Shown here: in pieces, positions 27,381 through 55,868 of the stretch | Position numbering within the stretch: position 1 is the stretch's first letter | Layout of the letters: each line of letters starts with the position of its first letter | Assembly: GCF_030817275.1 (NCBI RefSeq) | Contig: NZ_JAUSZD010000002.1 | Coordinates: forward strand, 4,588,001 to 4,652,000 | Length of the DNA: 64,000 nucleotides | Source: Paenibacillus sp. V4I7 | GTDB taxonomy: Bacteria > Bacillota > Bacilli > Paenibacillales > NBRC-103111 | Direction of reading: 5' to 3' | Made by a program: the position numbers and the translations under genes | Notes under the pieces: model-generated | Told to the model about the DNA's origin: nothing | What the model saw: the letters and a program-made list of their open reading frames with translations, nothing else | Databases searched by the model: none

Positions 27381-28475
27381 TCAATAATCAAAACATGTTT
27401 TCAAGTCATTCTGATTGAAGGTTAAAATATCAGCAAGCGGCAATCTTTTTGCTACAGGCAAAATAATGGGATGATCTTTATGAGGCTCTGTCTGATACCA
27501 ATATGCGGTACTGGAATAATCGTCACTGCGATGGTTATTATGTCCATGTTCAATTGTCACTTTAATGGACGTGTCGAACATCACAGGATCTTCAATGTGG
27601 AACCGGTACGCTGAGATTTTGCCTGACCAGTTCGGGCCTCCACCGAGTATAAGACCGTGATTCGGCGTACATTGTTCCTGCTGCGGGCACCATGCCGTAT
27701 TAAAGTAATCCTCCATCCCCGTACCGTGGAGTGAAGGGGGCCATGGTTCCCCATCAATGAAGATCATATCGTCCCCTTCTCCGTACCAGTTCCATTCCCG
27801 CGTCATACGCAAGTTATGAATGTTCAGGTTGCAGCCGACATAATGGCCCTTTCCAACTGCATCCAACATCACATAATTGCCGTCGCCTGTTATATTTTTT
27901 CCGCCGAATTCAAAAAGCGCATTGGAAATGGTATCTTCGATACCATCCGTAAGTTCGCGGCGCCAGATGGCATGAAACCTAAGCTCGCTATCGATCGGGA
28001 ACGCATATTGTTCGTAATCGACATAGAAGTAAAACTTGATCGGTTGATCGGCATCGGATTCAACTTCAATCCTGGCATTGCTTCCAAACGGCATCGGGAA
28101 GAAGCAATTCAGCGCTCTTCCGTCTTCCGGACTCATCGCAAGCGGCGCTGAGCTGAAGTTTTTCGTAATGCCATGACCCATACCGAAGAAATCACCGATC
28201 GGAGCCTGTACACTCGGGTTTTCTTCGCCATCCCAATACATCTTGAGTACGACTTTTCTGTGCAGGTACGTTTCGATCGCAGCGTCGTCGAGCGGCGCCA
28301 TCGTCATCCAGATATGGGTAATACAGCCGGAGCCGTCTACATCAAAAATTGTGATCTTCTCTCCTGGATAAAGCTTGCTATAGTCACGATTCCCGCCCGT
28401 TGTATCATAACTTGAAGCTCTTTTGCGCTTTCCTTGGCGAGTTCGGTATAAATCTCTTAAAGATGATCCTAACAT
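27381..28475 (-). CDS. GH172 (DUF2961) glycosidase, copy A
   Basis: A 364-residue protein with the DUF2961 hallmarks: SGCITHIWMT near residue 50, the YWDGEENPSVQAPIGDFFG segment, WYGEGDDMIFIDGE, and HGTGMEDYF. The acidic residues in the last two are where the GH172 catalytic pair is placed. Known members cleave alpha-D-fructofuranosyl or alpha-D-arabinofuranosyl linkages. There is no signal peptide, so it acts in the cytoplasm on imported oligosaccharides. It is the last gene of the importer operon, 35 bases after a permease gene. A second GH172 gene lies at 40995-42077. Exact substrate is inferred, not shown. Confidence 0.88.
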   Translation of the reverse strand: MLGSSLRDLYRTRQGKRKRASSYDTTGGNRDYSKLYPGEKITIFDVDGSGCITHIWMTMAPLDDAAIETYLHRKVVLKMYWDGEENPSVQAPIGDFFGMGHGITKNFSSAPLAMSPEDGRALNCFFPMPFGSNARIEVESDADQPIKFYFYVDYEQYAFPIDSELRFHAIWRRELTDGIEDTISNALFEFGGKNITGDGNYVMLDAVGKGHYVGCNLNIHNLRMTREWNWYGEGDDMIFIDGEPWPPSLHGTGMEDYFNTAWCPQQEQCTPNHGLILGGGPNWSGKISAYRFHIEDPVMFDTSIKVTIEHGHNNHRSDDYSSTAYWYQTEPHKDHPIILPVAKRLPLADILTFNQNDLKTCFDY

Positions 28476-28503
28476 AATCGTATCAGCTCCTAGTTGTTAT
28501 GGA

Positions 28504-28525
28504 ACCGGCATCATTTGATACCGGT
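28504..28525. repeat. Inverted repeat at the permease stop codon
   Basis: ACCGGCATCA-TT-TGATACCGGT; one mismatch, overlaps the stop of the second permease gene. May stabilise mRNA ends between permease and GH172. Confidence 0.5.
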
Positions 28526-29323
28526 CATTTTGATGCCTTCCACCAAATATCTCTGCATAAAGAAGAACAATAAGAAAGTAGGCAATGCAGCAATTACCGC
28601 CGCTGCAAGCACGATATTCCATGGAGTCACATAACCCCCGCCAACCAAATTAGCCAGTTGAACCTGAATGACCCACATCGTCTCTTTTTGTGTAATGATA
28701 AGAGGCCAGATATAGGAATTCCAGTTAGCCAGGAAAAAGCCGATTGTTAATGGCGCGATAATCGGCATCGACAGCGGCAATGCGATTCGGAAAAACGTCC
28801 CTGCCTGAGAAAGCCCCTCTATATAGGCTGCCTCTTCCAACTCCTTTGGAAATTCCCGATAGAACTGGCGGAACAGAAATATTCCATACGCGTTAAAAAT
28901 GGCAGGAATGATCAAACCGGCAAATGAGTTGGTCATGCCTAAGTTTTTCGTTATCAAATACAACGGCAGCATGATGACAGCAAAGGGAATCATTAGCGTG
29001 CTGAGCATCCATGCGAAGATCACATTTTTCCCGGGAAATTGAAACCGGGCAAGCGCGTATCCGGACATCGCATGGAACAGCATAGCAATCACCGTTACGC
29101 TCGTAGACACGATAAGGGAGTTCATAATGGATCTGAGCAAATGCGATGAGGTAACAGCCTCAACAAAATTGGCAAACTCAAATTCCGTAGGCCAAAGTTG
29201 AATGTCAAAAACATGCGTCTCGGAACGAAGAGAGCCTATGAATAACATGTAAATTGGAAAAATCATGGCGACCCCGACAATAATCGACACCGTCGGTATT
29301 ATGAATCGGTTCATTATTCGCAA
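28511..29323 (-). CDS. Carbohydrate ABC transporter permease (MalG type)
   Basis: A 270-residue permease with six membrane segments and the EAA loop EEAAYIEGLSQAGTFFRIALPLSMP. It is the MalG-like partner of the permease just upstream (11-base gap). The start is TTG at 29323 or an ATG three codons on; both are near the ribosome site. It ends KMTGIK as many family members do. No ATPase gene is in this operon; importers of this family usually share a housekeeping MsmK-type ATPase. Confidence 0.92.
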   Translation of the reverse strand: MRIMNRFIIPTVSIIVGVAMIFPIYMLFIGSLRSETHVFDIQLWPTEFEFANFVEAVTSSHLLRSIMNSLIVSTSVTVIAMLFHAMSGYALARFQFPGKNVIFAWMLSTLMIPFAVIMLPLYLITKNLGMTNSFAGLIIPAIFNAYGIFLFRQFYREFPKELEEAAYIEGLSQAGTFFRIALPLSMPIIAPLTIGFFLANWNSYIWPLIITQKETMWVIQVQLANLVGGGYVTPWNIVLAAAVIAALPTFLLFFFMQRYLVEGIKMTGIK

Positions 29324-29334
29324 AGTAGCACCGC

Positions 29335-30222
29335 CTAATCTTTAGAAGAGAAAAATTTAAGTTGGATCATAGAAAACGCGAATACGATCAAGAACAAAAC
29401 GAAAGCGAGCGCAGAAGAATACCCCATATTCAACATTTGGAAAGCTTCTTTAAAGATATAAAGCACGCTAACTTCCGTTGAATTCATTGGGCCCCCTTTT
29501 GTCATAACAATGATATGGTCGAAAATTTGAAAAGAAGCGATCGTCGTGACGATCAAAATAAACGTATTCGTTTCTCTCAGTAAAGGGAAAGTAATATAGC
29601 GAAAGCTTTGAAAGCGGGTAGCCCCGTCTATATGTGCCGCTTCGAAATAATCGATCGGAATTTCCTTAATAGCCGATAAAAAAATCGTCATGTTATAGCC
29701 GATGTTGATCCACAGCAATGTCAGAATGACACAAAAGATGGCCTGTGTAGGAGAGCCGAGAAACTGTTGTTTTCCGATACCGACAAGAGAAAGCAGTTGA
29801 TTGGCAAGGCCGTTTCTCGGATCAAGCAGGAACATGACAATGATAGCTGAAATAACCGATGTGACCGCAAATGGCAGTAAAAACATCGTTCTAACCACAC
29901 CTACTGATTTACCCCGCAGCCCGTTTACAAGCAGTGCAGAAAGCAATGCGAGGCAAAACAACAATGGCACATAAACAACGCTAAAGAGCAATGTTCGTGT
30001 TACGGAATGCCACCACTGCTCATCCGAGATTAAGGTGACATAGTTCTGAAATCCAACATACACTTTAGGTGATAATGCGTTCCAATCATGCAAACTAACA
30101 TAAAAAGCATAGAGAATCGGTATAAAAACAAATATCATTAATCCCAAAATGTTGGGAAGCAAGAAACTGTAAGCTGTAACCCATTCTTGAATCATACGGG
30201 CATTGCTGCGTCTTGGAGTCAC
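29335..30222 (-). CDS. Carbohydrate ABC transporter permease (MalF/UgpA type)
   Basis: A 295-residue permease with six membrane segments and the EAA motif YFEAAHIDGATRFQSFRYITFPLL. It begins with GTG at 30222, preceded by GGAGGGGTAAA. Together with the MalG-type subunit it forms the channel for the sugar bound by the lipoproteins encoded upstream. A stable hairpin separates it from the binding-protein gene. Confidence 0.92.
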   Translation of the reverse strand: MTPRRSNARMIQEWVTAYSFLLPNILGLMIFVFIPILYAFYVSLHDWNALSPKVYVGFQNYVTLISDEQWWHSVTRTLLFSVVYVPLLFCLALLSALLVNGLRGKSVGVVRTMFLLPFAVTSVISAIIVMFLLDPRNGLANQLLSLVGIGKQQFLGSPTQAIFCVILTLLWINIGYNMTIFLSAIKEIPIDYFEAAHIDGATRFQSFRYITFPLLRETNTFILIVTTIASFQIFDHIIVMTKGGPMNSTEVSVLYIFKEAFQMLNMGYSSALAFVLFLIVFAFSMIQLKFFSSKD

Positions 30223-30301: not shown

Positions 30302-31633
30302 TTATTTCTGTTTGCTTAGAATTTCCGTGATTTTTGCATCGACGGTTTTGGCGGCGTCAGCACCTGACATTTTACCGTACATGACGTACTGCATCGCATC
30401 ACCGACGGCCTCGACCACTTCGGATGGATAACGCGGTTCTGGGATCGCGGAGTTATAAATTTCTTCAGTGAACACTTTACGCAGACCTTTGTTGTAAATG
30501 TCCTTCCCTTTTTCGACTACGGATTTACGCGGGGAGTAAGCGAACTTCACTTCCGTACCCCATTTCAATGCATGGCTCAGATCCGATGAACCGAAAGCCC
30601 ACATGACAAACTTGGCAGCTTCAGCCGCATTCTTGCTTTGACCGTTAACAGCCATTTTCCAACCCCCTGCATCCGTTGCAGCTTTACCGCCGGCAGGAAT
30701 CGGAAGCGGTGCTAGACCAATAGGCACATCTTTATATTTCTCTTCAATTCGATTGATCGCCCATGTTCCGACAATTTGCATGGCTGCAGTTTTGTTACCC
30801 AGGTTATCGATCTCCCAAGGACCGAGCTGCAGTTTTTTCGGAGACAGACCGTCTTTGAAGAAGCTTCCCCAGAAATCGAGTGCTTTGGCCGTCTCAGGCG
30901 TGTTGAATGTTGATTTGGTTCCGTCTGCGCTCAGCACGTTACCGCCTTGCTGCCACAGGAATGGATACCAGATAAAGTTGAAGTATGGTCCTTTGTCTGG
31001 CGGAATAATCAGACCCGCTACCTTATCGGTTGTCAGTTTCTTCGCTGCGGCATGAAGCTCATCCCATGTCTTAGGAACTTGAACACCGGCTTTATCCAGC
31101 ATTTCCTTGTTATAGTAAAGACCTAGTGTTTCCAATTCGAATGGCAGAGCCATGATCTTGCCGTTATAAGTTACAGCTTCAAGAGATGCAGGAAGAAAAT
31201 CCTCTTTCACGCCTGCAGGGAAATCAGGTGTCAAATCTTTCATCAAACCGGATTTGGCGAATTTCATAAAATCGCCCGGGCTGATCATATAGAGATCCGG
31301 CCCTGCACCGCTTGCAAAACCCGTAGGGAGCTTGGTCGTCGTGTAGGAGGCCTGGTCATAAGTCGAATACTCAATTTGCACTTGATCTTGCGATTTGTTG
31401 TAAGCATCGACCAAATCTTTGAAGAACTTACTCTCAGCTTCGGTGTGCATATCCCAGAAAGCCAGTTTAACTTTGTCTTTCTTGGCGGAGCTTGTTTCCT
31501 TGGTGGCTTCTGTACCTTTCGGTGTTGCTTCGCCGGCTTTTGGAGCTTCTGTCGGTGATGAACCACAGCCTAGCTGTAAAACAAGTACGGAGCTAATCGC
31601 CGCAACCCCTAACGTTTTCCAATTCCGTTTCAT
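30302..31633 (-). CDS. Sugar ABC transporter binding lipoprotein (family 1), copy 2
   Basis: A 443-residue extracellular solute-binding protein. The signal peptide ends in lipobox VLQLGCGSS and a Thr/Lys/Glu-rich linker follows. The fold signature is GFASGAGPDLYMISPGDFMKFA near the N-terminus and GGWKMAVNGQSKNAAEAAKFVMWAF near the C-terminus. It is a close paralogue of the binding protein encoded immediately upstream and lies next to the two permease genes, so it is probably the main ligand receptor. The ligand is unknown; the context suggests a furanose oligosaccharide. Confidence 0.92.
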   Translation of the reverse strand: MKRNWKTLGVAAISSVLVLQLGCGSSPTEAPKAGEATPKGTEATKETSSAKKDKVKLAFWDMHTEAESKFFKDLVDAYNKSQDQVQIEYSTYDQASYTTTKLPTGFASGAGPDLYMISPGDFMKFAKSGLMKDLTPDFPAGVKEDFLPASLEAVTYNGKIMALPFELETLGLYYNKEMLDKAGVQVPKTWDELHAAAKKLTTDKVAGLIIPPDKGPYFNFIWYPFLWQQGGNVLSADGTKSTFNTPETAKALDFWGSFFKDGLSPKKLQLGPWEIDNLGNKTAAMQIVGTWAINRIEEKYKDVPIGLAPLPIPAGGKAATDAGGWKMAVNGQSKNAAEAAKFVMWAFGSSDLSHALKWGTEVKFAYSPRKSVVEKGKDIYNKGLRKVFTEEIYNSAIPEPRYPSEVVEAVGDAMQYVMYGKMSGADAAKTVDAKITEILSKQK

Positions 31634-31721
31634 CTGTTGTATCCCCTTTCATTTCGACTACACCTTGAGTATAATCCGGGGGGACAACTGTACATAACGA
31701 GAAATAATTTAGCTAGGTGGA

Positions 31722-33068
31722 CTATTTTTGGATTTTGGACAGGAAGCGGTCGATCTTCTCTTCCATGCTCTGTGCCACTTCTTTACCGGATAGCCTGCTG
31801 TACAGTAAGCTCTGTAACGACTGGGTAAATATCCGGTTGATTTCTTCGGGATATTGCGGTTCCATCCGCTCCGTACCGAAAATTTCATTCGTAAAGACCT
31901 CTCGAAGACCGCGCCGGTAATAGTCAGAACCCGCTTCCATGACGGACTTGCGCGGGGAATAAGCGAACTTCACATCGCTGCACCATCTGAGCGGTATGCT
32001 CGTATCGCCGGAAAAAGCCCACATCACAAACTTCGCGGCTTCGCTTGCATAATCGCTTCGCGAGTTCACCGCAATTTTCCATCCGCCTGCAATCGTAAGA
32101 CGATTCCCGCCATCCGGCGTCGGCAGAGGAACGACTCCGATCGGCTGATCGGCGTATTGCGTTTCCAGCATGCGAATATTCCACGTCCCGCTCACCTGCA
32201 TCGCCGTTTCACCATTCGTCAAAATGCCAATATCCGTTGCCGGCCGTGATGGCTGCATATTAATCAACCCTTGATTCACCATACCCCGAAAAAAATTGTA
32301 CATCTCCTCGCCTTTCGTATGGCTCAGTCCGAGATTCTTACCGTCATCTGAGATTAAATCTGCACCGGTTTGCCAAAAAAACGGAAGCCAGGAGAAGTTC
32401 TGATACACACCGCCGAACGTCTCTATCGTTAAACCGCTTACACGTGAGGATCTCAGCTTCTGCGCCGCCTCCATCATCTCATTCCAGTTTTTGGGCGGCG
32501 ATATCTCATGCTTTTGAAACATTGATTTATTGTAAAATAAACCCATTAATTCGGTTTCGATCGGAACCGCATAAATATTATTATACAAAGTAACGGAATC
32601 CAGGGCTGCTGGGTAGAAATCCTCTTTCATTGCCGGTGTAAAAAACGAGTCGAGCGGCATTAACATGCTGACATCCGCTAGACGTTTAATCATGGGCGAC
32701 GATACAAAAAAGATATCCGGACCCGTTCCGGATGCAAATGAAGCGAGCAGTCTTTCCCCCGTAAAATAATCATCGCTGGACACGTACTCCACTTTGATTT
32801 CTATATCCGGATGCAGCTGCTGATACTGCTTGCCCAGCTCCTGCCAAAATTCAAACTCCTTGGACGTATGGAACGACCATAAGCGAAGCACCTTCTTAGG
32901 CGCATTCGTATCCTTGCTTTGCCCTCCCTGCGGGCGAAACAGCTTGTCGAGTTCCGGTGATTTTGCTGATTCCGTGCTTTGCTCGCAGGAAATTAGCATG
33001 CTGAACACAGCCACTACAAGCAGCAGCTTTTTGGCAAGCATTACCCTCATTGCCATTGATTTTTTCAT
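31722..33068 (-). CDS. Sugar-binding lipoprotein (family 1), copy 1, coupled to response regulator
   Basis: A 448-residue solute-binding protein with lipobox SMLISCEQS. Shared features with the downstream paralogue include SFASGTGPDIFFVSSP, GGWKIAVNSRSDYASEAAKFVMWAF, and a C-terminal segment ending in IDRFLSKIQK. The ATG at 33068 lies two bases beyond the response-regulator stop, so it is transcribed and probably translated with the two-component genes. It may deliver ligand to the sensor kinase or be a second specificity receptor. The 88 bases after it contain the promoter-like start region of copy 2. Confidence 0.9.
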   Translation of the reverse strand: MKKSMAMRVMLAKKLLLVVAVFSMLISCEQSTESAKSPELDKLFRPQGGQSKDTNAPKKVLRLWSFHTSKEFEFWQELGKQYQQLHPDIEIKVEYVSSDDYFTGERLLASFASGTGPDIFFVSSPMIKRLADVSMLMPLDSFFTPAMKEDFYPAALDSVTLYNNIYAVPIETELMGLFYNKSMFQKHEISPPKNWNEMMEAAQKLRSSRVSGLTIETFGGVYQNFSWLPFFWQTGADLISDDGKNLGLSHTKGEEMYNFFRGMVNQGLINMQPSRPATDIGILTNGETAMQVSGTWNIRMLETQYADQPIGVVPLPTPDGGNRLTIAGGWKIAVNSRSDYASEAAKFVMWAFSGDTSIPLRWCSDVKFAYSPRKSVMEAGSDYYRRGLREVFTNEIFGTERMEPQYPEEINRIFTQSLQSLLYSRLSGKEVAQSMEEKIDRFLSKIQK

Positions 33069-33069
33069 G

Positions 33070-34638
33070 TCAATCCTCCTTCCGGAAGAAAAACTGTCGG
33101 TATTCCACGGGGGTGACACCCATTTTTTTCTTGAATAACCGTGAAAAATATTTTACTTCCTGATAGCCGACCATTTGCGCGATTTCATACAATCTTAATT
33201 GGGCATCCATCATCAATGTTTTCGCCTTCTCCATACGAAGCCCAGTTAAATATTCAACAAACGAACTGCCGGTTTCGAGTTTAAAATAAGAGCTCAAATA
33301 GCTCGGATTCATTTGCACATGCCGCGCTGCGTCTTCTAACGAAATGTCTTGCGAATAGTTCGATTGCATGTAGGAGAGCGCCTTCTCGATAGTCCGATTC
33401 TGCTTCTGCGTTCTATTCCATTCCATAGACACAATACATGATTGGGTAAGACTTAACATAAATTCAACATACTCTTCGAGTGTAAAGTTCCTGTCAAATA
33501 AGTCGATAGGACGAGCCATATTCGCGAGAACTAGATCGTACATTTTTTGTTCATAGGTCAATCGAATAACGGCGGAAACCAATTGTAAGCAAAACCTCCG
33601 AAACAACCGGAACGAAACATTTCTTTGTTTGACCGTTTCTATGAACTTGGTCAGAACGAGCGAAGATTGATGGGACTGACCGCTTCGAATCGACTTGACT
33701 AGCTCCATTTCCAACGCGTTCGGGTAACCAACCTCAATGATGTCCTCCATTTTCAAATCGTCGTAATCGCTTACTGTTCCGCACCCGTAAAGCCATTTAT
33801 TTTGTAAGGCAACGCGTGCATGCTGCAGAATTTCCGGCAGCTCGAGGTAAGAGTCCGTGACGTCGCTGATCCCGATGGAAATCGATATTTTGAGCCAGCG
33901 GCTGACTTCCTCAATACTTGTTTTGGCTAACTGTCTCGTATCGTATTCATTAATCGTGAGAAAGAACAAGTGAGCACCGCTCACGAATAAAAAGTGAGAA
34001 TCCGAGTTTGTTTTCATCTCGGTAACATCCTGGACAATATTACGGACGGCAAACAAAACCAACTGTCTGTCCCCCCATTGATCCTCGTTGATCAGTTCAT
34101 CAATGAGATCCACTTCAATGACCATGATCCGAAACGTAGAAATATCGTTAGGGATTAAAGGGCTGAGCTGCTCCGGAGGCTCTTTCTCCTCTTGGAGTCC
34201 GAGCAGCCAATCCTTCCACAGCTTCGAATAATTCGGTCGGCTGGAGCTGGTCTGAGATACCGCTGGAACCAATTGTCGTTCCTTCTTCACTCTTTTCAGC
34301 ACACTCTCGATGTCCTCAGGCTTTAGAGGCTTTAACAAGTAATCGAAAGCGCCATATTTAACTGCCGTTTGCGCATATTCAAAATATCCATATCCCGATA
34401 GGATGACGACATGTACCGGATATTCCTTCAAATGACTGAGAAGATCCAACCCGTTCATATGCGGCATGCGGATATCCGTGATGACCAGATCAGGCATCTC
34501 TTTTTTGACCGCCTCCAGCGCATCATACCCGTTCTTGGCTTCACCAATCACGATCCAATCGCTGTCAAGCTTCGGAATTAAACTCGTCAGTCCTCTGCGA
34601 ACTCTCGGCTCGTCATCTACCACTAAGACCTTGTACAT
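33070..34638 (-). CDS. Two-component response regulator, AraC-type (YesN-like)
   Basis: A 522-residue regulator. Residues 1-120 form a receiver domain with acidic pocket DDE at 8-10, phospho-acceptor Asp55 in VITDIRMPHMNG, and Lys in LLKPLKPED. A variable middle region of about 280 residues follows, then two AraC helix-turn-helices at the C-terminus (EDAARHVQMNPSYLSSYFK and YEIAQMVGYQEVKYFSRLFKK). It pairs with the kinase encoded 21 bases upstream and should activate the sugar importer operon. Confidence 0.93.
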   Translation of the reverse strand: MYKVLVVDDEPRVRRGLTSLIPKLDSDWIVIGEAKNGYDALEAVKKEMPDLVITDIRMPHMNGLDLLSHLKEYPVHVVILSGYGYFEYAQTAVKYGAFDYLLKPLKPEDIESVLKRVKKERQLVPAVSQTSSSRPNYSKLWKDWLLGLQEEKEPPEQLSPLIPNDISTFRIMVIEVDLIDELINEDQWGDRQLVLFAVRNIVQDVTEMKTNSDSHFLFVSGAHLFFLTINEYDTRQLAKTSIEEVSRWLKISISIGISDVTDSYLELPEILQHARVALQNKWLYGCGTVSDYDDLKMEDIIEVGYPNALEMELVKSIRSGQSHQSSLVLTKFIETVKQRNVSFRLFRRFCLQLVSAVIRLTYEQKMYDLVLANMARPIDLFDRNFTLEEYVEFMLSLTQSCIVSMEWNRTQKQNRTIEKALSYMQSNYSQDISLEDAARHVQMNPSYLSSYFKLETGSSFVEYLTGLRMEKAKTLMMDAQLRLYEIAQMVGYQEVKYFSRLFKKKMGVTPVEYRQFFFRKED

Positions 34639-34659
34639 GTTGATCTCCCCCGTTGTGTC

Positions 34660-36438: not shown

Positions 36439-36532
36439 GGACCCCTTCTCCAATTCACGTAGTCTTTGACAAAAGTATAACATAAGCTATCTGGAACGCA
36501 GTCAGAAAAATCATCCATCTCCATCTGCGAGA

Positions 36533-38257: not shown

Positions 38258-38312
38258 AAGTACCTCCTTAGAGTTTTGCTTTAGCAAAACTTTCTTCGTA
38301 AGCGTAAGCTAG

Positions 38313-42160: not shown

Positions 42161-42250
42161 GTAATAATAGTATCAAATTTGTCCGTCCTATGCTTTGCCC
42201 GTAATTGTTAAAACATGTCCATTCTTGCTTTATTGGAGGCGAAGATTTTC

Positions 42251-45127: not shown

Positions 45128-45128
45128 G

Positions 45129-45953: not shown

Positions 45954-45966
45954 GCGTATTCCTCCA

Positions 45967-46965
45967 CTACTTATAACGCACCCGGGGATCCAGGAACGGA
46001 TACAAGAAATCTATAATAAATGTCGCGCCTGCCACAGCAATAATCGAAATGGTAATCGTTCCCATAATTAAATTATAATCTGATTGCAAAATGGCTCCAA
46101 AGATTAAAGTTCCTATCCCCGGATAGCCGAATAAGTATTCCGTTATCAATGCGCCGTTAAAAATACTCCCGAGCTGCAGAGCAAGCATGGTAACTTGAGG
46201 CAATGCGGCATTGGGCAGCACATATTTGGTCATGATTTTTCTTTCTTTCAGCCCTTTCAAGCGGGCGAAGTGCACGTAATCTTCTTCTGCAATGCCAGAA
46301 GACAATGTTTTCATACTAATGACCCACCAGCCGGTTCCGACTAAAATAATAGAAAGCGCCGGAAGCGCCGAGTTCACAAGCAGACTCTTGATATGCTCCC
46401 AGGAAAAGCCTTTCCCCATAAAATTCGCCGAAAGCGGGAATATGGGAATGATGTAAGCAAAAAGCATGATTAAAATTAACGCAAATATATAATAGGGAAT
46501 TGGATACAAGGCGATAGAAATGGCTTCCAGTACTTTGGAATACGCTTTCTCCTTGCGGAATCCTGACAAGAGACCGATGGCATTTCCGATAAGCCAGGAA
46601 ATCAATGTGGATATAAGCAGCAATCCCATTGTCCACGGCAATGCACGACCAATGAGCTCGTTTACCGGTGTCGGGTAATTGGCCAGAGACGGTCCGAAAT
46701 CATGGGTAAAAACAACTCTTTTGATAAAACCGAAATATTGCTGCACGATCGTACCTTGCAAACCGAACGATTCGTTTAATGTTTTACGCATGGACTCAAC
46801 TGCTCCCGGCTCCATAAAAGCCGATTTGGAAGTCATTCGACCGATCATTGCTTCCACGGGATCAGAAGGTAAAAATCTCGGCACAAAAAACACCGTTGTG
46901 ATGCCGATAAATACGACGAGTACAAACGTTATTGCTCTGGAAAGCAAAAACTTATAAAATCCCAC
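45967..46965 (-). CDS. ABC transporter permease (OppB/DppB type)
   Basis: A permease of about 332 residues. The N-terminal helix is LLSRAITFVLVVFIGITTVFF, the long first loop is followed by five helices and an EAA loop, ARLKGLKERKIMTKYVLPNA. I use the GTG at 46965 (VGFYKFLLSRA), with GAGGGG 11 bases upstream; GTG at 46974 is possible. The frame extends further upstream through an intercistronic hairpin, so that extension is not used. Confidence 0.9.
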   Translation of the reverse strand: MGFYKFLLSRAITFVLVVFIGITTVFFVPRFLPSDPVEAMIGRMTSKSAFMEPGAVESMRKTLNESFGLQGTIVQQYFGFIKRVVFTHDFGPSLANYPTPVNELIGRALPWTMGLLLISTLISWLIGNAIGLLSGFRKEKAYSKVLEAISIALYPIPYYIFALILIMLFAYIIPIFPLSANFMGKGFSWEHIKSLLVNSALPALSIILVGTGWWVISMKTLSSGIAEEDYVHFARLKGLKERKIMTKYVLPNAALPQVTMLALQLGSIFNGALITEYLFGYPGIGTLIFGAILQSDYNLIMGTITISIIAVAGATFIIDFLYPFLDPRVRYK

Positions 46966-47015
46966 AGGAGTCACTTCCCCTCTTTTAACATCTAGATCCA
47001 ATGGTAAGGCTAAAA

Positions 47016-47048
47016 TCGCATACCGAGCCAAACGGGCCCGGTATGCGA
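47016..47048 (-). terminator. Intercistronic hairpin between oppA-type and oppB-type genes
   Basis: TCGCATACCG / CGGTATGCGA, 10 perfect pairs with a 13-base loop, then TTTTA on the minus strand; partial terminator or mRNA stabiliser for the binding-protein gene. Confidence 0.7.
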
Positions 47049-47069: not shown

Positions 47070-49043
47070 TTACTTACCCGTAGGCTTGAAGTGAGGCGTG
47101 TAGTATTTAAACTGTGACCACCACCACCACGGGCCTTCAAATGCATTTTTAGATGTTTGGAAACCAGTCCAATAATACGTATCGACAGGAACGAATTTCG
47201 AGGTGCCGAACATAGGGATGAACGGCATACCCTTAACGAATTCCTTATTGATTTCAGTAATATGGCTAATAACCTTAGGGTCGCTGCTTTGCATGCCGGC
47301 TAACTCGTCGATCAATGAGCTTACTTTGTCGTTGGCCCAGCGATTGCGGTTACCTGGCGCTTGTTTTCCGTTATCAACAATGTATTGTTTATGCCATCCT
47401 TGGAAGTTAGCGGTGCTGTCAGGCAGCAAACCGCAAGCCGGCCAATAGGAACCAACCTCAAATGCGCCTGTAGATTCACTATCCCAGAATGTAGCGCCAT
47501 CCATTTGTTGAACATTTGCGTCAATGCCGTTCTTTTTCCAGCTGTCTGCTACCGCAAATGCAAGTCGCATAGATTGCACTTCGAAGTTGGCAGGTGCGTT
47601 GATCGTCACTTTCCATGGTGTGCCGTCAGGTTTCAACCATTTGTCGCCTTGCTTCTTGAATCCTGCTTTTTCAAGCAGTTTACCGGCTTGGGCAGGATCG
47701 TATTTATACCAACCTACCCCAAAGGTGTTCACAGCTTCTTTCGTATCTGTCGGCAAACCTTTAATGCCTTGCTGCTTCAACATTTCCACCATGTCTGTCG
47801 CATAGCTTTCGTCAAATGGCTTGTAACCGTCGCTTAGTTGGAAGTCTTTAAGCCAACCTACCATAGGCTTGTGGTATTTCTCTTGCAGCACAGAGATCGG
47901 CGGAAGTTGAATCGGTGAAACTCTCAGCATCCCGCCGAAAGTAGCCAAGGATACGTTCTTGATATCCGTCATCAAAGCCATCGCCCAGCGTACGTCCTCA
48001 TTGTTGTACGGGGCTTTCGAAGCGTTAAAAGACATACCTCGTTCACAAGGGTCATTCATATCTGCGTAAGGGAAGTTTTCATACCAGGCAAGAGCCGTTT
48101 TGTTCTTTTGACGAAGTACATCCCAACTCTCAGGCGTAATATCCTGCAGAATGTCCATCTCATGTTGAATGGATGCGATGATCCGTTTTTCTTCCGGCCC
48201 GAAGAACTTGAACAGGATGTATTGCGCGCCGGGCTCACCAACGATTTTACCGATATCGCTCTTTTGCCAGTCTTTGCGTTTCTCATAGAGGAACCAGTTC
48301 CCCTGTGGATCACGTGATTTCAACGTATACGGTCCGAGACCGACAGGATCCTTGAACTTAAATTTCGTCGGATCTTCTTTTTCCCAAATATGTTTAGGCA
48401 TGACTCGGAAGGCAGTTCCCCAGATGACTACACCTAATTTTTGGGCTAATCTAGTTTCAGGGTTAACCGTTTCTACCTCGATCGTATATTTATCTAGCGC
48501 TTTCATACTTTTCACGAGGCTCGCGTAATAACCGCTATATCCGAGTTCTTTCGTTTTAATGATCATATCTGACGTGTACACGACGTCATCTGCCGTGAAT
48601 TCCACACCATCGGACCAAGCTAATCCCTCTTGCAGCTTGAATTTGAATTTCGTATTGGTGTTGTCCAGAGGCTCCGGAAATGTCGCCGCCAAGTCAGGAA
48701 TTTGTTCCCCTTTTTCTGTATTAATTTCCCATAAGCTAGAGAAAATCAATTGATGGAACCCGGCATCCATCGGCACCGCACCTGGCACGTAAGGATTCAC
48801 CAGATCCGGGTCAGCGGTTTTACCGCTCAAAATGTCAACAATCAGTGTTTGATTTCTTGGCGTACCGACATCGGTCATTTTCCCGCCGCCCACAGTGTTT
48901 GCAGCGGTTGCAGCTGCACTTGCCGTTGGTTTATCCGAGTCCGTACTTGCAGGCTCTTGCGTGTTAGATGCTTCTTCACTGCATGCACTCATCAGCAGCA
49001 TTAACGCTAAAACCAAGCTGATAAAACCTTGCTTTTTTCTCAC
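47070..49043 (-). CDS. ABC transporter substrate-binding lipoprotein (family 5)
   Basis: A 657-residue extracellular binding protein. Signal peptide with lipobox LLMSACSEE and a Ser/Thr/Ala-rich linker; the family-5 signature region is near LQEGLAWSDGVEFTADDVVYTSDM. It is larger than most peptide-binding OppA proteins and resembles family members that bind oligosaccharides (Trp-rich C-terminus, GPWWWWSQFKYYTPH). First gene of the importer operon, preceded by the two-component genes on the same strand. Ligand is not determinable; the setting favours a plant or actinobacterial glycan fragment. Confidence 0.9.
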   Translation of the reverse strand: MRKKQGFISLVLALMLLMSACSEEASNTQEPASTDSDKPTASAAATAANTVGGGKMTDVGTPRNQTLIVDILSGKTADPDLVNPYVPGAVPMDAGFHQLIFSSLWEINTEKGEQIPDLAATFPEPLDNTNTKFKFKLQEGLAWSDGVEFTADDVVYTSDMIIKTKELGYSGYYASLVKSMKALDKYTIEVETVNPETRLAQKLGVVIWGTAFRVMPKHIWEKEDPTKFKFKDPVGLGPYTLKSRDPQGNWFLYEKRKDWQKSDIGKIVGEPGAQYILFKFFGPEEKRIIASIQHEMDILQDITPESWDVLRQKNKTALAWYENFPYADMNDPCERGMSFNASKAPYNNEDVRWAMALMTDIKNVSLATFGGMLRVSPIQLPPISVLQEKYHKPMVGWLKDFQLSDGYKPFDESYATDMVEMLKQQGIKGLPTDTKEAVNTFGVGWYKYDPAQAGKLLEKAGFKKQGDKWLKPDGTPWKVTINAPANFEVQSMRLAFAVADSWKKNGIDANVQQMDGATFWDSESTGAFEVGSYWPACGLLPDSTANFQGWHKQYIVDNGKQAPGNRNRWANDKVSSLIDELAGMQSSDPKVISHITEINKEFVKGMPFIPMFGTSKFVPVDTYYWTGFQTSKNAFEGPWWWWSQFKYYTPHFKPTGK

Positions 49044-49139: not shown

Positions 49140-50606
49140 TTATGAAACCGTTTTCTGAAAATCCTTGGGGCTCATATTTTCAACGTTTTTAAACACAGTG
49201 CTAAAATAAGCAGCATCTTGAAAACCTACCATTTCTGCCACTTGATACACTTTTAAATCCCTTTGTCTTAAAAATTGCTTCGCCATACGCACCCTGACTT
49301 GATTCAAATATTCACTGAAAGTGATATTCATATATTTCTTGAATTGGGTGCTAAAATACCATGGATTCAGAAACACGGTGTCCGAAACCGTCTTCAAGCA
49401 TAGATCTTCCATATAATGAGTTTCAATATATTTCTTCACAACATGAATGTATTGAGGCGTAGGCCCTTCGACATGCAAATTCGTAACGATGTCCATGATC
49501 ATATTTTTCAACCAATCTAATAACGTTCGGCAGGTGGGCAACAGCTTGATTTTTTCAATATAATCCGCAAATTCACCGCTAATAGGTTGAAGTCCATGAT
49601 CCATCAATTGATGTTCCAAATACAGTACTTCTTTCACTGCCTCATTCTTTAGCAATTTCGGATCCCAGAAAGAATCCCTGTGATACAGTTGATTCCACTT
49701 CGTTTCTAGATAGTGACTCAATTTTTCAAAATCTCCATTCAACAAATATTTTCCCAGTATTTCGCTTGAAAAGTAATGGCTAAAATGCAGCGTTTTTTGC
49801 TTGTCCACATATTTCTGGTACATCTCCACATCCAAAACTAGGGTCATTTCATTGAATTGTAAAAAGTCAATCATTTCCACACAAAAATCAAACGTATGAC
49901 TCAAGCGCGCCGGGCCATGATGGCAGTCGGCAACGACCCAGTTCGTGGAATAACCTCTCTGGAACAAGCTTTGCCGATAACCGTAAAATCGCTGCCTTGC
50001 TGCGGTTACATCTAAGGAATGTTGAAAAAGGATTACGTAATGAGGATCAACCGCGATACATTCAACAAATTCCTTGGGCATATTCCCTTTCTTCAATTCT
50101 TGTTTGAGATGCTCCATAAATCCCGAATCTGTGCATCCTTGAACGGAAACAACGGCCATTTTTAGGTTATCGTAATCGGCATACTTTTCGAACCATTCTT
50201 GCTCTTCCGAAATAACCGCTTTATTATCACGCTGCACGATACCTTCTTCAAGCTTACGTAAAATATCCAAAATACTCTGATAGTGACACGGCTTTAATAA
50301 ATAATCATACGCCCCGTTCTTCATTGTCTGTCTGACGAATTCAAAATCGTCGTATCCGCTCAAAACAACCACTTCGGTTTGCGGGTATAACGTCCGAATC
50401 TGTTTTGTAAGTTCAATTCCATCCATATCAGGCATTTTCACATCCGTAATCACGACATCGACGCAAACATCTTGGAGAATGGTCAGTGCCTCCGCAGCGC
50501 TTTGAACCATGCTTATTACTTCGTAATTCGGGCAATATTTGTTCAAAATATGTGAAATTCCATGTAAAACAGTCTTCTCATCATCAACGAGCATCATTTT
50601 GAGCAT
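49140..50606 (-). CDS. Two-component response regulator, AraC-type (YesN-like)
   Basis: A 488-residue regulator. Receiver domain with acidic DDE at 8-10, phospho-acceptor Asp55 in VITDVKMPDMDG and the LLKPCHYQS lysine; a variable middle section; C-terminal AraC helix-turn-helices with DTVFLNPWYFSTQFKKYM and YQVAEMVGFQDAAYFSTVFK. It pairs with the kinase gene 36 bases upstream and lies directly before the Opp-type importer genes, which it should activate. Confidence 0.93.
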   Translation of the reverse strand: MLKMMLVDDEKTVLHGISHILNKYCPNYEVISMVQSAAEALTILQDVCVDVVITDVKMPDMDGIELTKQIRTLYPQTEVVVLSGYDDFEFVRQTMKNGAYDYLLKPCHYQSILDILRKLEEGIVQRDNKAVISEEQEWFEKYADYDNLKMAVVSVQGCTDSGFMEHLKQELKKGNMPKEFVECIAVDPHYVILFQHSLDVTAARQRFYGYRQSLFQRGYSTNWVVADCHHGPARLSHTFDFCVEMIDFLQFNEMTLVLDVEMYQKYVDKQKTLHFSHYFSSEILGKYLLNGDFEKLSHYLETKWNQLYHRDSFWDPKLLKNEAVKEVLYLEHQLMDHGLQPISGEFADYIEKIKLLPTCRTLLDWLKNMIMDIVTNLHVEGPTPQYIHVVKKYIETHYMEDLCLKTVSDTVFLNPWYFSTQFKKYMNITFSEYLNQVRVRMAKQFLRQRDLKVYQVAEMVGFQDAAYFSTVFKNVENMSPKDFQKTVS

Positions 50607-50642
50607 ATAAAGGTACCCCCTCTTTATATTTAATGATAGCGC

Positions 50643-52325
50643 TCACATCACTGCCGCCAGATTTATCTCTTTTCTTATGCCCAGTCTCACTTTAATTGTT
50701 GTTCCTTTTCCGACTACACTGTCAATAGAAACCCCATACTCCTCTCCATACATATACTTCGCTCTTTGATGAACGAGTTGGATCCCCAACCCCGCTTCCT
50801 CGCTTACAGACTCGCAAGTTGACAAGAGCATCTGAATTTTCCCCTCTGACATGCCAATCCCATTGTCGGCCACCTCAAAATACAAACCATCCGCATCCAT
50901 ATAACCCCGAATTTGAATAATTCCATCATGCTTCATATCCTGGAAGGCATATTTAATGGCATTTTCAACCAATGGTTGAATGACCAGCTTAGGAATTTTA
51001 TAGTCCACTATCTCATGTTGAATCTCAAATTCATATTGCAATTTATCTTCATATCTCATTCTTTGGATCATCAAATAATTCGCTAACTGTTCCATGTCTT
51101 CCGTCACTGTCACAAACTCATTTTGATGCGATATCGAGTACCTGAGAATATTGGAGAGGGCAACAATACTTCCTCCAATCTCCTCTTCTTCTTTCATAAT
51201 GGCCTTCCAATAAATCATATCTAACGAATTGTACAAAAAATGAGGATTTAACTTGGAGAGTAAGCTCAGTAATTCTGCTTTCCTATGATGTGTCTGCTGC
51301 TGATAGATCGTTTCAATGAGATGATTAATCCGTTCTACCATGTAATTGAAATGAGAGAAGATCGTTCTAAATTCATCATTGCTCTTATGATCCAGAACAA
51401 CGTGTAAGTTGCCTTGCTGAACACTTTCCATCCCTCTCATGATCTTTCTTAAAGGCCGCAAAACGACCTGTGCCGTAGCGATCGCGAATGCCATAATAGC
51501 CGCTAGAATACAGATGACCATGAAAATAAAAATCCGATTGAATTGGTCGATTTGATGTAGAATTTCGGCTTGAGGCACAGCTCCAATGATCTTCCACCCC
51601 TTTTCCTCGAGCTCAACTTCCACTTGGGTACTGAGCATATTGTCCAGAACGGACACCGGTTTTCCAATGAACTCCCGATTTTTCGCGTAAATGATCGTAT
51701 TATCTTTGGCAAGGTAGGCCTTCCCTTCCTTTCCCAGATGCACTTCATCTAAAATCTGACTAAAAAGGAGTTCATTCAGACTAATTTTGAGTATGCCCAA
51801 ACGATCTTTTTCATGAATCAGACAAAGGGCGGAGAAAGAATACGGTTCCGACTGTAAATCCGTCCATACCATTTCATCTGGATTGTTTTTGAAACCCTCA
51901 TTTAACAACTTTTTAATCGTTTCATCCGCTTCAAAAACAGCAGTCGAGTAGTATAAATTAATCGGCTGTGTGCTGACTGGAAAGATGTAGATATTGTCTA
52001 TCCATTCCATATTGGTTGTTCTTAATATTTCATTACTGATTTTGTATTTGGCGATATTGTAATTAATCGTATGATTTTTAAGATCCGATAAATAATTTTT
52101 CACAACTTGATTATTTCTCATCCCCACTGCCAAATTATTAAACTGCTTCGTTTGAAGCTCTACCCGTTTTCCAACCTGATTAACGGTTTCTTGAAAATAG
52201 GTGTCCGACTTTTTCAAAATAATGGCGCCCATCCAATGCTGAAATATCCCGATCTGCAACAGTAAGATAAGACTAGAAAAAAGTATAAAAAATAGGATGA
52301 TCTTCGACTTGAGCGAAGTATGCAT
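50643..52325 (-). CDS. Sensor histidine kinase (YesM-like)
   Basis: A membrane kinase of about 560 residues. Two membrane helices (about 7-29 and 265-290) enclose an extracellular sensing domain; HAMP follows with RGMESVQQGNLHVVL, then the His motif LNPHFLYNSLDMIYWK and a HATPase domain with VIQPLVENAIKYA and DNGIGM. I use the ATG at 52325, preceded by AAAGGAG; an earlier in-frame ATG has no ribosome site. It controls the adjacent Opp-type importer through the response regulator. Confidence 0.92.
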   Translation of the reverse strand: MHTSLKSKIILFFILFSSLILLLQIGIFQHWMGAIILKKSDTYFQETVNQVGKRVELQTKQFNNLAVGMRNNQVVKNYLSDLKNHTINYNIAKYKISNEILRTTNMEWIDNIYIFPVSTQPINLYYSTAVFEADETIKKLLNEGFKNNPDEMVWTDLQSEPYSFSALCLIHEKDRLGILKISLNELLFSQILDEVHLGKEGKAYLAKDNTIIYAKNREFIGKPVSVLDNMLSTQVEVELEEKGWKIIGAVPQAEILHQIDQFNRIFIFMVICILAAIMAFAIATAQVVLRPLRKIMRGMESVQQGNLHVVLDHKSNDEFRTIFSHFNYMVERINHLIETIYQQQTHHRKAELLSLLSKLNPHFLYNSLDMIYWKAIMKEEEEIGGSIVALSNILRYSISHQNEFVTVTEDMEQLANYLMIQRMRYEDKLQYEFEIQHEIVDYKIPKLVIQPLVENAIKYAFQDMKHDGIIQIRGYMDADGLYFEVADNGIGMSEGKIQMLLSTCESVSEEAGLGIQLVHQRAKYMYGEEYGVSIDSVVGKGTTIKVRLGIRKEINLAAVM

Positions 52326-52437
52326 GCCGTTCTCCTTTGCAATGAGGTTCATACTCAAATTGTAATCCCATTTATCAAATAAAGATTTAGCCGAACTGAA
52401 CAAAACTTATCCCAAATTGCTCAATTGAATGATGACG

Positions 52438-52471
52438 TAAAAAAACAGGCCACCCGTAAGAGGCGGCCTGT
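52438..52471 (-). terminator. Terminator of the secreted-enzyme gene
   Basis: ACAGGCC / GGCCTGT stem with inner GC pairs, T7 tail on the minus strand; isolates the secreted protein gene from the kinase gene downstream. Confidence 0.85.
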
Positions 52472-52542
52472 AAGAAATTGATTCAACGATGAGTGAAGCG
52501 AGTATTTTGAATCGATACATGCTTTTCACCATCCTTGTTCTG

Positions 52543-54648
52543 CTATGGTTTTTCCAAAACGATATCATCAACTTGAATCCATGAGTCAACCCCCGGAGCC
52601 CAATAGCCAACGAAAAGTGTGACGGATGTATTAGAGCCAGAATTAAAGGCGATTGTTTGCTGTGTATAGTTCAGTAAACCTCCATAATTAACTTCGCTAA
52701 TGACGCCTCCAGACGAGTTGCGTACGCCGAAGAAACCGCCCGAGAAGTTGTTCGAGTTCCGAATCCAGCCCTTCAGCACATAATTGGTGTTCGGCAGCAC
52801 GTTCACTTGCTGCATCAGGGCGTTCCAATTCGTTGTCGACGTTCGGATCCAGGCGTTATTCGCCCCGCTATGCGCAAAACCGCTGCCTCGGTCGATGCCT
52901 TTGCTGTCCGGCCCATCCGTAGTCCAAGGTGCGGAAACCGTTGAATTCGCTTGATTCTCAAAGCCCGCATCCTGCACGACACCGCTGGCATAGTAGACCG
53001 CCAATTCACTGATGGAGGTAAATTTTGCACTGCCTCCGGGCGTACCGATGATGCGTATGCCGTCTCCCCAAGTGTCGTCAAACGTAAACGTATATGACTT
53101 ATTGGGACCTGCCGTATTGTTATAAGGGTAATTCGGCCCGACCTGCACGTTCGTTGCGTCTACCCATTGCGAGTTACGGCGTATCTGCACCTTCAAGTCG
53201 CCACTGAACCAGCCGCCGTCGCTAAACATTTGCCCGGTTGTGTAAACGAGTTTGTTCATGTTGTAATTCCGAGGCCACATATAGCCCCACCAGTCTGTCG
53301 TCTTATTCTCTTGATCCCAGCTATCCTCATTTTGCGTGGTGCTGTCGTCATTGTAGAATTGTGTATTGCCGTAATGCGCAACCTTCTCGATAGGCTTCGT
53401 ACCGTTTGCCGGAGCTGCCAAATTGATCGTGTCACTTTTCAAGTTCGCCGCTGTAGTCGAAACGTATGGTTCTACGACGAACTTGCGCAGCGAGAAGTTA
53501 TAATTGGTCGCTCCGCCGACGAATGTGTTGGACTGTACGTACATCGTTTTCCCGTCGGCGCTAATGTATTTGGAAGGGATAACCGTCGTGTATCCGCCAT
53601 TCTTCGTATCCGACCAAGGATAACCGCCAAAATCTTTGGTCATGAACTTTTTCCACGGCCCCCATGGCTGCGGCGCTTCGTAAAATTCAAATGTGTACTC
53701 CGTCCACGACGTATACAAGTAACGATTTAATGCTTTATTATAGACAATACCGCCCTGCGACAAGACTGACGTATTGCTCGGATGGGCGGAATCGCGGGTG
53801 CTTGCGTAAATGCGCCGGTCGTCCTGAAGCACAGGCTTTCGCAGGTTGATATCGCTCGACCAGGTCGCGTTCCCATTCAAGTCTCCGGTGTAAAACTCCC
53901 AAGTCGTACGGTTTTGGATACTCGACTTCGGTATTCTCGCGAGGAACAGCTTGTTGGGATCGGACACCGTATTGTCGAACGAATCCCGCCAGTTATTATC
54001 GAGCCCGTAAGCGTATACATAATTGTCAAACGTATTCCACGCTGAATTTTGTCCATAGTCAAGGAACATAATTGTAGTGAATGTATGATTGTTAAACATC
54101 GGAGCTGCTGTGTTCCATGTCCAAGTCGTACCGTGATCTGTCGATTTCGCGATCGTCGCATTCGGCGCATCATTGAAGTCGAGGTTTAAATCCTGCACGG
54201 CCAAATAGAGTTCTCCGTTCACGCACACCATCCCGGTCGGCTTGCGGTTGTAAGAGCCACTTGTGTTCCAAATTTGTCCAACTGCATGATTAGTGGCAAG
54301 CGTCGCACCGCTAAGGCTGCCAATGCTGCCGGAAATGCGGTTGACAGCGATGTCAGGGTTCGGTGGCGCAGGCGGTATGCTGTTTGGTGATGTCGAACCG
54401 AGCGTAAAGCCTTTTCCATCTCCGTTGGCCGCATACAGATGGCCGTCATCTGCCCAGCACGATGCCCATAAGTCGCCTTGTGAAGCCGTATTGATTGTAT
54501 CCGACGATTCGATTGCTGTTGTGGAGAAAAAAGTGCTGTCCTGCGGCACGACTGCGTGCGCCGGTAATGACGGCGCACCTGCAAGCATCCAGCAAGAAGC
54601 CACTGAAACCAGAATTACGCATTTGCTTTTTTTCCTAAATGTCTTCAT
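52543..54648 (-). CDS. Secreted three-domain glycan-active protein (DUF4185-like beta-propeller plus CBM-like modules)
   Basis: A 701-residue protein with a clear signal peptide (residues 1-32, ending PAHA). Domain 1 (about 40-400) looks like a five-bladed propeller of the DUF4185/sialidase-like type: DLWASCWADDGHLYAANGDG, then KPTGMVCVNGELYLAVQD and SKSTDHGTTWTWN-like and EAPQPWGPW repeats. Domain 2 (about 405-550) is beta-rich with WWGYMWPRNYNMNKLVYTTG and WGDGIRIIGTPGG. Domain 3 (about 555-701) is a CBM4/9-like sandwich, VQDAGFEN to WIQVDDIVLEKP. DUF4185 proteins include the GH183 endo-D-arabinanases, so it is a candidate extracellular depolymerase. The family assignment is from memory of motifs and is uncertain. 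It has its own terminator and a leader with short ORFs. Confidence 0.65.
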   Translation of the reverse strand: MKTFRKKSKCVILVSVASCWMLAGAPSLPAHAVVPQDSTFFSTTAIESSDTINTASQGDLWASCWADDGHLYAANGDGKGFTLGSTSPNSIPPAPPNPDIAVNRISGSIGSLSGATLATNHAVGQIWNTSGSYNRKPTGMVCVNGELYLAVQDLNLDFNDAPNATIAKSTDHGTTWTWNTAAPMFNNHTFTTIMFLDYGQNSAWNTFDNYVYAYGLDNNWRDSFDNTVSDPNKLFLARIPKSSIQNRTTWEFYTGDLNGNATWSSDINLRKPVLQDDRRIYASTRDSAHPSNTSVLSQGGIVYNKALNRYLYTSWTEYTFEFYEAPQPWGPWKKFMTKDFGGYPWSDTKNGGYTTVIPSKYISADGKTMYVQSNTFVGGATNYNFSLRKFVVEPYVSTTAANLKSDTINLAAPANGTKPIEKVAHYGNTQFYNDDSTTQNEDSWDQENKTTDWWGYMWPRNYNMNKLVYTTGQMFSDGGWFSGDLKVQIRRNSQWVDATNVQVGPNYPYNNTAGPNKSYTFTFDDTWGDGIRIIGTPGGSAKFTSISELAVYYASGVVQDAGFENQANSTVSAPWTTDGPDSKGIDRGSGFAHSGANNAWIRTSTTNWNALMQQVNVLPNTNYVLKGWIRNSNNFSGGFFGVRNSSGGVISEVNYGGLLNYTQQTIAFNSGSNTSVTLFVGYWAPGVDSWIQVDDIVLEKP

Positions 54649-55867: not shown

Positions 55868-55868
55868 G

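Follow-up and report, generated by a model that had tools for sequence, protein, structure and literature searches.

A probable D-arabinan utilization locus in Paenibacillus with a divergent secreted DUF4185 protein and two importers

How does a candidate D-arabinan locus from the Bacillota compare with the systems already described? Cell walls of the mycobacterial type are the main known source of D-arabinan, and genes for its degradation were named in two 2023 papers. The Gram-positive example is the D-arabinan polysaccharide utilization locus (PUL) of Microbacterium arabinogalactanolyticum (MIAR_33170-33320; PMC10509167), which combines extracellular DUF4185 proteins, an ATP-binding cassette (ABC) importer, the signal-less GH172 enzyme ExoMA1, and a putative isomerase and kinase, and for which the same kind of pathway as below was proposed. 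PUL42 of D. gadei (Bacteroidota) was found by proteomics on D-arabinan and holds predicted fucose isomerase, DUF2961 (GH172), and DUF4185 genes; the two DUF4185 proteins tested are active endo-enzymes, and the available sections of the paper mention no ABC importer (PMC10115798). The subjects of these two papers include Actinobacteria, Bacteroidota, Myxococcus, a predator, and a phage; both main texts lack the words "Bacillota" and "Firmicutes", and "Paenibacillus" is mentioned only within the title of one reference (PMC10509167 and PMC10115798). Our subject is a 64,000-nucleotide stretch of the genome of Paenibacillus sp. V4I7 (contig NZ_JAUSZD010000002.1, positions 4,588,001 to 4,652,000; hereafter the window), in which the region from 26 to 55 kb is very probably a D-arabinan utilization locus.

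The gene set of the Gram-positive PUL is present in the window: an extracellular DUF4185 protein, an ABC importer, a signal-less GH172 protein, an isomerase, and a kinase. Unlike the M. arabinogalactanolyticum PUL, the window has one divergent DUF4185 protein, which we call type W, rather than four DUF4185 genes, and no GH116 gene in the locus; it adds an Opp-type importer, two two-component systems, and a second GH172 gene, and it comes from a different phylum (PMC10509167). It is best read as a version, from the Bacillota, of the known Gram-positive locus that has two importers and, as its sole DUF4185 protein, type W; the kind of system is already known, and what is new is the phylum, the secreted protein, and the second importer. 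A preliminary description of the sequence had proposed D-arabinan utilization and knew of no such system in Paenibacillus. An ExoMA1-level match, a binding module like that of the endo-D-arabinanase EndoMA1, dedicated FucI and AraB copies, fuller loci in relatives, and gene co-occurrence now support the proposal, and the literature we searched yielded no description from Paenibacillus or other Bacillota, although papers beyond that search may exist.

Protein families, key residues, the split between paralogues, and co-occurrence were computed, and from them we infer activities, transport substrates, regulation, and ecology. In the proposed pathway, type W would bind D-arabinan through its C-terminal module and cleave it with Asp59 and Asp77. 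Two sensor-controlled ABC importers, one with two SBP_bac_1-type binding proteins and one of Opp type, would take up D-arabino-oligosaccharides, from which cytoplasmic GH172a, with GH172b, would trim alpha-D-arabinofuranosyl (alpha-D-Araf) units. Judging from their families, paralogue trees, and work in Escherichia coli, FucU and FucI would then lead D-arabinose to D-ribulose, and the dedicated AraB would convert D-ribulose to D-ribulose 5-phosphate for the pentose phosphate pathway. The natural source is likely to be arabinogalactan or lipoarabinomannan of Mycobacteriales.

The 20 open reading frames (ORFs) of 27381-54648 were scanned with Pfam and NCBIfam profiles. Every gene named in the preliminary description is an intact ORF at its given place, and the LacI gene lies just beyond the range it covered (27381-54648). 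From right to left, the minus strand carries the DUF4185 gene, a kinase and regulator, SBP_bac_5 with OppB, OppC, OppD, and OppF, GH172a, FucU, FucI, AraB, a second kinase and regulator, two SBP_bac_1 genes, two permeases, GH172b, and LacI; the AraC gene stands divergently on the plus strand between the Opp genes and GH172a. In window coordinates, the features are as follows.

26237..27223, minus strand: LacI-family regulator, probable repressor of the locus (Pfam: LacI 71 bits, Peripla_BP_1 123 bits)
27381..28475, minus strand: GH172b, probably cytoplasmic, DgGH172c-like, with an AWC motif (PF11175, 281 bits)
28511..30222, minus strand: two ABC permeases, perm1 and perm2 (PF00528; block conserved in relatives)
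30302..33119, minus strand: two solute-binding proteins, SBP1a and SBP1b (PF01547, 133 and 152 bits)
33070..36483, minus strand: response regulator and histidine kinase of importer 1 (Pfam)
36584..38287, minus strand: ribulokinase AraB, dedicated copy by paralogue comparison (TIGR01234, 734 bits)
38313..40106, minus strand: FucI-type isomerase, likewise a dedicated copy (TIGR01089, 1046 bits)
40141..40587, minus strand: FucU-type mutarotase (PF05025, 132 bits)
40628..40651, no strand: tandem LacI-type operator-like palindromes upstream of FucU-FucI-AraB (two exact GTAAWCGWTTAC)
40995..42077, minus strand: GH172a, probably a cytoplasmic exo-alpha-D-arabinofuranosidase, ExoMA1-like (PF11175, 333 bits; 8ic8)
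42148..42159, no strand: operator-like palindrome between GH172a and AraC (exact match to GTAAWCGWTTAC)
42215..43138, plus strand: AraC-family regulator, divergent (HTH_18, 75 bits)
43162..47031, minus strand: Opp-type importer genes OppF, OppD, OppC, and OppB (Pfam)
47070..49043, minus strand: SBP_bac_5 binding protein, lipoprotein-like (PF00496, 157 bits)
49140..52403, minus strand: response regulator and histidine kinase of importer 2 (Pfam)
52543..54648, minus strand: secreted type W DUF4185 protein (PF13810, 45.1 bits)

The GTG start set mechanically for SBP1b (33119) overlaps the regulator gene, and the true start probably lies further inside the ORF. Judged by eye, the DUF4185 protein has a signal-like N-terminus and both GH172 proteins lack one.

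What would the two GH172 proteins act on? PF11175 (DUF2961) covers GH172a over the whole profile (positions 1-235 of 235), and residues 11-359 align with ExoMA1 (8ic8; 480 bits, E 5.3e-143), the solved exo-alpha-D-arabinofuranosidase of M. arabinogalactanolyticum (PMC10509167); the score against the fructoside enzyme alphaFFase1, 160 bits, is far lower. The side chain of Asn253 in ExoMA1 blocks fructofuranosides, and alphaFFase1 has Gly299 at that place (PMC10509167). The same Asn is present in GH172a (AWN where it aligns to 8ic8), in 62 of 63 distinct relatives at 60% identity or more, with no motif found in the remaining one, and in 16 of 20 relatives in the 40-60% identity class. GH172b groups with 4kq7 (293 bits), alphaFFase1 (7v1v; 279 bits), and 8ah3 (273 bits), and has Cys rather than Asn at the N253 position. 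That Cys is common to 8ah3, whose Protein Data Bank (PDB) title, "DG02479 GH127", fits HMPREF9455_02479, which is DgGH172c; we compare GH172b with this protein and do not class it as ExoMA1-type. DgGH172c is active on p-nitrophenyl alpha-D-arabinofuranoside (pNP-alpha-D-Araf) and is thus an alpha-D-arabinofuranosidase (PMC10115798). Strong homology suggests that GH172a and GH172b remove alpha-D-Araf units in the cytoplasm, and the earlier proviso that the pair might act on fructosides alone loses ground, since the sequences favor arabinofuranosides, through the Asn of ExoMA1 in one protein and the Cys of DgGH172c in the other. A locus for alpha-D-fructofuranosides such as difructose anhydride, after the example of alphaFFase1, is very unlikely: the almost equal scores of GH172b to alphaFFase1 and DgGH172c would suit it, but the Asn of GH172a should exclude fructofuranosides according to the ExoMA1 structure (PMC10509167), and FucI, the ribulokinase, and the D-arabinan-type module would have no evident role. 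The window genome has a third GH172 gene (L095, G000:C2:5673859-5674908; L labels denote loci or stretches and G labels genomes of this analysis, G000 being the window genome). Its product has Cys at the selectivity position, it adjoins AraC and another set of binding-protein, permease, and regulator genes, and its class, about 50% identical, is present in many relatives.

The sugar-handling genes fit D-arabinose and D-ribulose. FucU scores 125.5 against a cut-off of 141 for the NCBI fucose-mutarotase profile and so falls below it. Two fucI copies occur in the window genome, the second 72% identical to the locus copy, as do two araB-like copies (100% and 63%) and five weaker kinase matches. 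Trees from 14 hand-chosen genomes separate the locus copies from the others: among 22 FucI, ten locus copies fall into one clade of 11 (support 100/99), whose eleventh member is a G024 copy lying away from that genome's locus, and among 19 AraB a branch with support 95/100 splits 11 locus copies from 8 others. Because second copies exist elsewhere and the locus copies split off in the trees, the FucI and AraB of the locus are by sequence second, dedicated copies. When Escherichia coli was evolved on D-arabinose, it relied on FucI/FucK/FucA and AraB (PMC6452873), and D-ribulose is a substrate of purified AraB (PMC12307932). The FucI plus AraB route of the evolved strains uses the same pair of enzyme types as the window, where the copies would be dedicated and united in one locus, with AraB rather than a fuc kinase beside FucI (PMC6452873); if our reading is true, a route known from laboratory evolution has been fixed in nature.

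Could the same genes serve another sugar? Catabolism of L-fucose beside unrelated glycosidases is even less probable than a fructoside locus. The FucI does exceed the equivalog cut-off for L-fucose isomerase, but among the 20 ORFs neither a fuculose-phosphate aldolase (FucA) nor a fuculokinase was found with it, the kinase being of AraB type, and the locus FucI groups with the FucI of other such loci. The second fucI of the window genome, moreover, stands in a separate fucU-fucI-FGGY kinase-aldolase series built like an L-fucose operon; its kinase is closest to rhamnulokinase, and kinase and aldolase are both below every NCBIfam cut-off shown. Plant L-arabinan is the least credible substrate: AraB and AraC family members are present, but the 20 scanned ORFs hold no AraA, AraD, or L-arabinofuranosidase family. 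On these grounds the fructoside, L-fucose, and L-arabinose readings were rejected.

The secreted protein is the only DUF4185 protein found in the window genome. Its PF13810 score is above the gathering cut-off (45.1 versus 39.5), with residues 115-335 matching positions 70-267 of the 309-position profile only. It consists of a beta-propeller (about 30-400), a discoidin-like part (about 400-555, by weak matches seen in relatives only), and a binding module (557-700). Compared over the propeller alone, type W and GH183 are related by hhalign (99.1%, E 1.9e-18), and a Foldseek search with a type W model (predicted local distance difference test score 87) found EndoMA1 first (8ic1/8hhv, E 7.5e-27; next 1.6e-11), although the binding module contributes to this match and whole-chain template-modeling scores are low (0.34-0.49). 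The propellers are too distant for a pairwise sequence match, a quick tree places type W and canonical GH183 very far apart, and type W has an extra part between propeller and module that EndoMA1 lacks. The preliminary description had likened the protein to DUF4185 and pointed to the GH183 endo-D-arabinanases; the PF13810 match bears out the first, marginally, and canonical GH183 membership does not hold for this distant clade with Gln in place of Glu.

At the C-terminus of this protein, a stretch of 145 residues is homologous to the D-arabinan-binding module of EndoMA1 (E 1.2e-15). Five subsite-A residues, D365, F379 (as Trp), R381, W468, and Q470, are kept as D586, W600, R602, W690, and Q692; in the EndoMA1 crystal structure they hold the best-bound arabinose, and the paper warns that the status of the module as a carbohydrate-binding module is still to be established (PMC10509167). 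At least 19 further module-only matches occur in at least nine of 392 genomes of the order, Paenibacillales (lower bounds); compared by position and frame length, all 19 follow a complete canonical GH183 domain, either singly or as tandem copies.

Does type W retain a GH183-like active site? When type W is aligned by MAFFT with canonical relatives, Asp77 shares an invariant column with the second catalytic Asp of GH183. Asp59 precedes Asp77 by 18 residues, the spacing of Asp33 and Asp51 in EndoMA1 (17-22 in canonical relatives), and both Asp stand before Leu. A pattern script found this spacing in 78 of 79 type W sequences, with one unmatched, and in type W of the stretch L180 the Pfam match starts place the corresponding Asp on the same profile position as in an EndoMA1-like protein, if ungapped. 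Asp59, Asp77, and Gln298 are invariant in all 79 sequences (the window protein and 78 with long, stop-free matches, two loci having been dropped); conservation at residues 190-215 is biased by the scan patterns, and the three residues lie outside that segment. Gln298 stands where canonical GH183 have Glu (E243 of EndoMA1), by MAFFT and by profile alignments, and because the third carboxylate is thus replaced we treat type W, on present alignments, as a divergent clade related to GH183 and do not file it there. The corresponding Glu mutant of DgGH4185b stayed active (PMC10115798). Type W is a putative endo-D-arabinanase, one of its two predicted catalytic Asp being placed by alignment and the other by spacing.

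How widely is the system shared within the order? Orthologues of GH172a at 64% identity or more occur in 65 of 392 genomes, counted by hand; the 100 genomes obtained at E 1e-60 take in a class of about 43-57% identity. Eighteen of the 392 have full canonical GH183 domains (at least 190 bits); all 18 are among the 65, as are all seven genomes with full-length type W. Fuller loci of relatives carry canonical GH183 (491 bits, profile versus EndoMA1), and G340 has GH116 as well (697 bits to ExoMA2). A single stretch of G340 runs through AraC, GH172a, LacI, FucI, AraB, GH172b, GH183, an importer, DUF6259, a GH183 with two binding modules, a 330-residue protein, GH116, GH183, LacI, and a kinase-regulator-SBP-SBP-permease-permease block (SBP, solute-binding protein) as in the window (L205); where G340 has the 330-residue protein, G366 and G111 have a dehydrogenase. 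The unit of two-component system, Opp importer, and GH172a recurs in another genus (L085 and L086), and a LacI orthologue adjoins GH172b in G144 and G098. If the reading is true, an ExoMA1-type enzyme is encoded by roughly a sixth of the genomes sampled from the order, and a common bacterial group would be possible consumers of Mycobacteriales cell walls.

Several findings weigh against D-arabinan utilization as laid out here. In type W, none of the outer module positions N361, Y382, and N383 is conserved; MAFFT sets Asp59 three columns away from the first catalytic Asp, the global hhalign alignment leaves it unmatched, and local profile alignments begin downstream of it, so that an assignment as the GH183 nucleophile was not obtained by alignment and spacing is what points to it. 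Loss of the Glu that is Gln in type W nearly abolished EndoMA1 activity (PMC10509167). Among the genomes, which are related, so that their co-occurrence counts are not independent, FucI or AraB lies near GH172a in 11 of 21 and neither in 10 (viewed up to 20 kb each side, contigs permitting), and 15 narrower GH172a stretches (L080-L094) contain neither. G366 and G189 carry the locus AraB, but all their FucI belongs to the other clade; G199 lacks locus-type copies of both enzymes, and among the 14 genomes searched G006 yielded no FucI. The 20 locus ORFs include no GH116, the sole one in the genome lying about 0.5 Mb away, and 32 of 80 type W loci have no marker gene nearby. The activities of GH172a and type W, induction of the locus, and growth are themselves predictions.

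The locus might instead handle only short D-Araf oligosaccharides freed by others, with type W a binder or a minor exo-enzyme, and we regard this as unlikely but well worth weighing. It agrees with G144, whose GH172a is 99% identical to that of the window and which keeps the import and cytoplasmic part with no DUF4185 found, with the lack of canonical GH183 in the window genome, and with the Gln and the spacing-based Asp in the type W site; the invariance of Asp59 and Asp77, the signal-like N-terminus, the EndoMA1-type module, and the best fold match to EndoMA1 all speak for a secreted enzyme acting on the polymer. The beta-D-Araf step may be encoded away from the locus, because the distant GH116 protein (L005 1171-3798, 875 residues) keeps, by eye, the ExoMA2 residues Glu431, His446, and Arg483.

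Where else does type W occur? Scanning contigs for relatives of the domain gave 97, of which 80 loci were kept, from Paenibacillus, Cohnella, Bacillus, Lentibacillus, Haloplasma, many actinomycetes, Archangium, Niabella, and an acidobacterial metagenome-assembled genome (MAG). PF13810 is matched at E 0.001 by 34 of 61 members (the window protein and 60 chosen from 74 usable sequences). In several bacterial phyla the type W gene has known D-arabinan genes as neighbors. At least one of GH172, canonical GH183, GH116, and FucI lies near type W in 48 of 80 loci and in 39 of 53 loci of at least 21 kb; the individual counts of the 80 are GH172 42 (39 at 40% identity or more), GH183 17, GH116 6, and FucI 2. 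Flanks were at most 10 kb, some short, several genomes give two loci, and L106 (Paenibacillus sp. Root444D2) counts as a miss because GH172a, beside type W in G140, is just past its flank. By comparison, the chance of a GH172 in 21 kb is roughly 1% (a rough estimate from 113 GH172 matches in 49 genomes of 1.4-13.8 Mb). Of the 80 loci, 50 are given by genome; 49 of these were covered, and 47 have GH172, both exceptions being Archangium. Within the order, the full-length protein lies inside or beside D-arabinan-type genes in six of its seven genomes (G000, G140, G176, G199, G024, and G111) and about 108 kb from GH172a in G098. G104 has a 31% match; it and G174 are both outside the 65 GH172a genomes and were left uncounted. 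G174 (L201 9431-10111) has a 226-residue type W remnant, 94% identical, in a genome with no GH172a match at E 1e-60.

A Microbacterium MAG (L180) carries, in order and with other ORFs between, a GH172a relative, a type W gene (373 residues), a second type W gene, and a 999-bit EndoMA1 match. The second protein (4375-5955) has no obvious signal peptide and follows a lipoprotein-like type W. In M. arabinogalactanolyticum, MIAR_33220 is extracellular, 300-400 residues long, and numbered between the GH172 gene MIAR_33200 and the EndoMA1 gene MIAR_33230 (PMC10509167); because gene order and protein size correspond to those of L180, MIAR_33220 may be a type W protein. Archangium (Myxococcota) type W (L107 and L141, 10001-12004), which carries the binding module, emerges from within the Paenibacillus branch of a quick tree (96 and 99 in the Shimodaira-Hasegawa-like approximate likelihood ratio test), which suggests acquisition by transfer, perhaps for attack rather than feeding. 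We put forward tentatively, with slightly more doubt than confidence, that type W forms a family of its own among secreted glycoside hydrolases, related to GH183 and active on D-arabinan, with an Asp/Asp/Gln site and its own linkage specificity, and that horizontal transfer played a part in its spread across Bacillota, Mycoplasmatota, Actinomycetota, Myxococcota, Bacteroidota, and Acidobacteriota. In this Paenibacillus it alone would open the polymer. If the D-arabinan reading of the locus is true, type W would offer a new tool to dissect lipoarabinomannan and arabinogalactan.

How might uptake and expression be organized? The solved chains nearest to the SBP_bac_5 protein are 4pft (with an unspecific title), 1vr5 (oligopeptide-binding), and 4pfu (mannoside-binding), so an oligosaccharide ligand is possible for the Opp-type binding protein. 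The sequence GTAAWCGWTTAC, which we take to be of the LacI-type palindrome class, occurs exactly three times in the window, as the tandem pair before FucU and once before GH172a. Allowing one mismatch gives five matches against 0.56 expected, one of them inside a regulator gene, and allowing three gives no excess (13 versus 10.5 expected). Matches also occur in 9 of 21 stretches from relatives, where the pair precedes FucU or FucI in G140, G144, G098, and G176, and LacI-FucI in G331; the G176 pair is flanked by FucI on one side and a divergent type W gene on the other. None occurred in the scanned stretches of G340, G111, G199, G228, and G152, and the window's own type W gene has no good operator upstream. 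The palindromes before FucU and GH172a are the probable sites of action of the LacI repressor and the AraC regulator.

Directly upstream, window positions 55031-63360 encode a GH28 protein together with another ABC importer and the two-component system that belongs to it. The block is probably a separate locus of pectin type, and we left it out because the 20-kb stretch of G140 that holds type W has no GH28 match. DUF6259 proteins, possibly another polymer enzyme, recur in the fuller loci of relatives (L047 11275-13524, L045 8951-11185, L057 11236-13461, and L202 10967-13267), as does a zinc alcohol/polyol dehydrogenase (L057 8093-9094 and L045 13273-14274).

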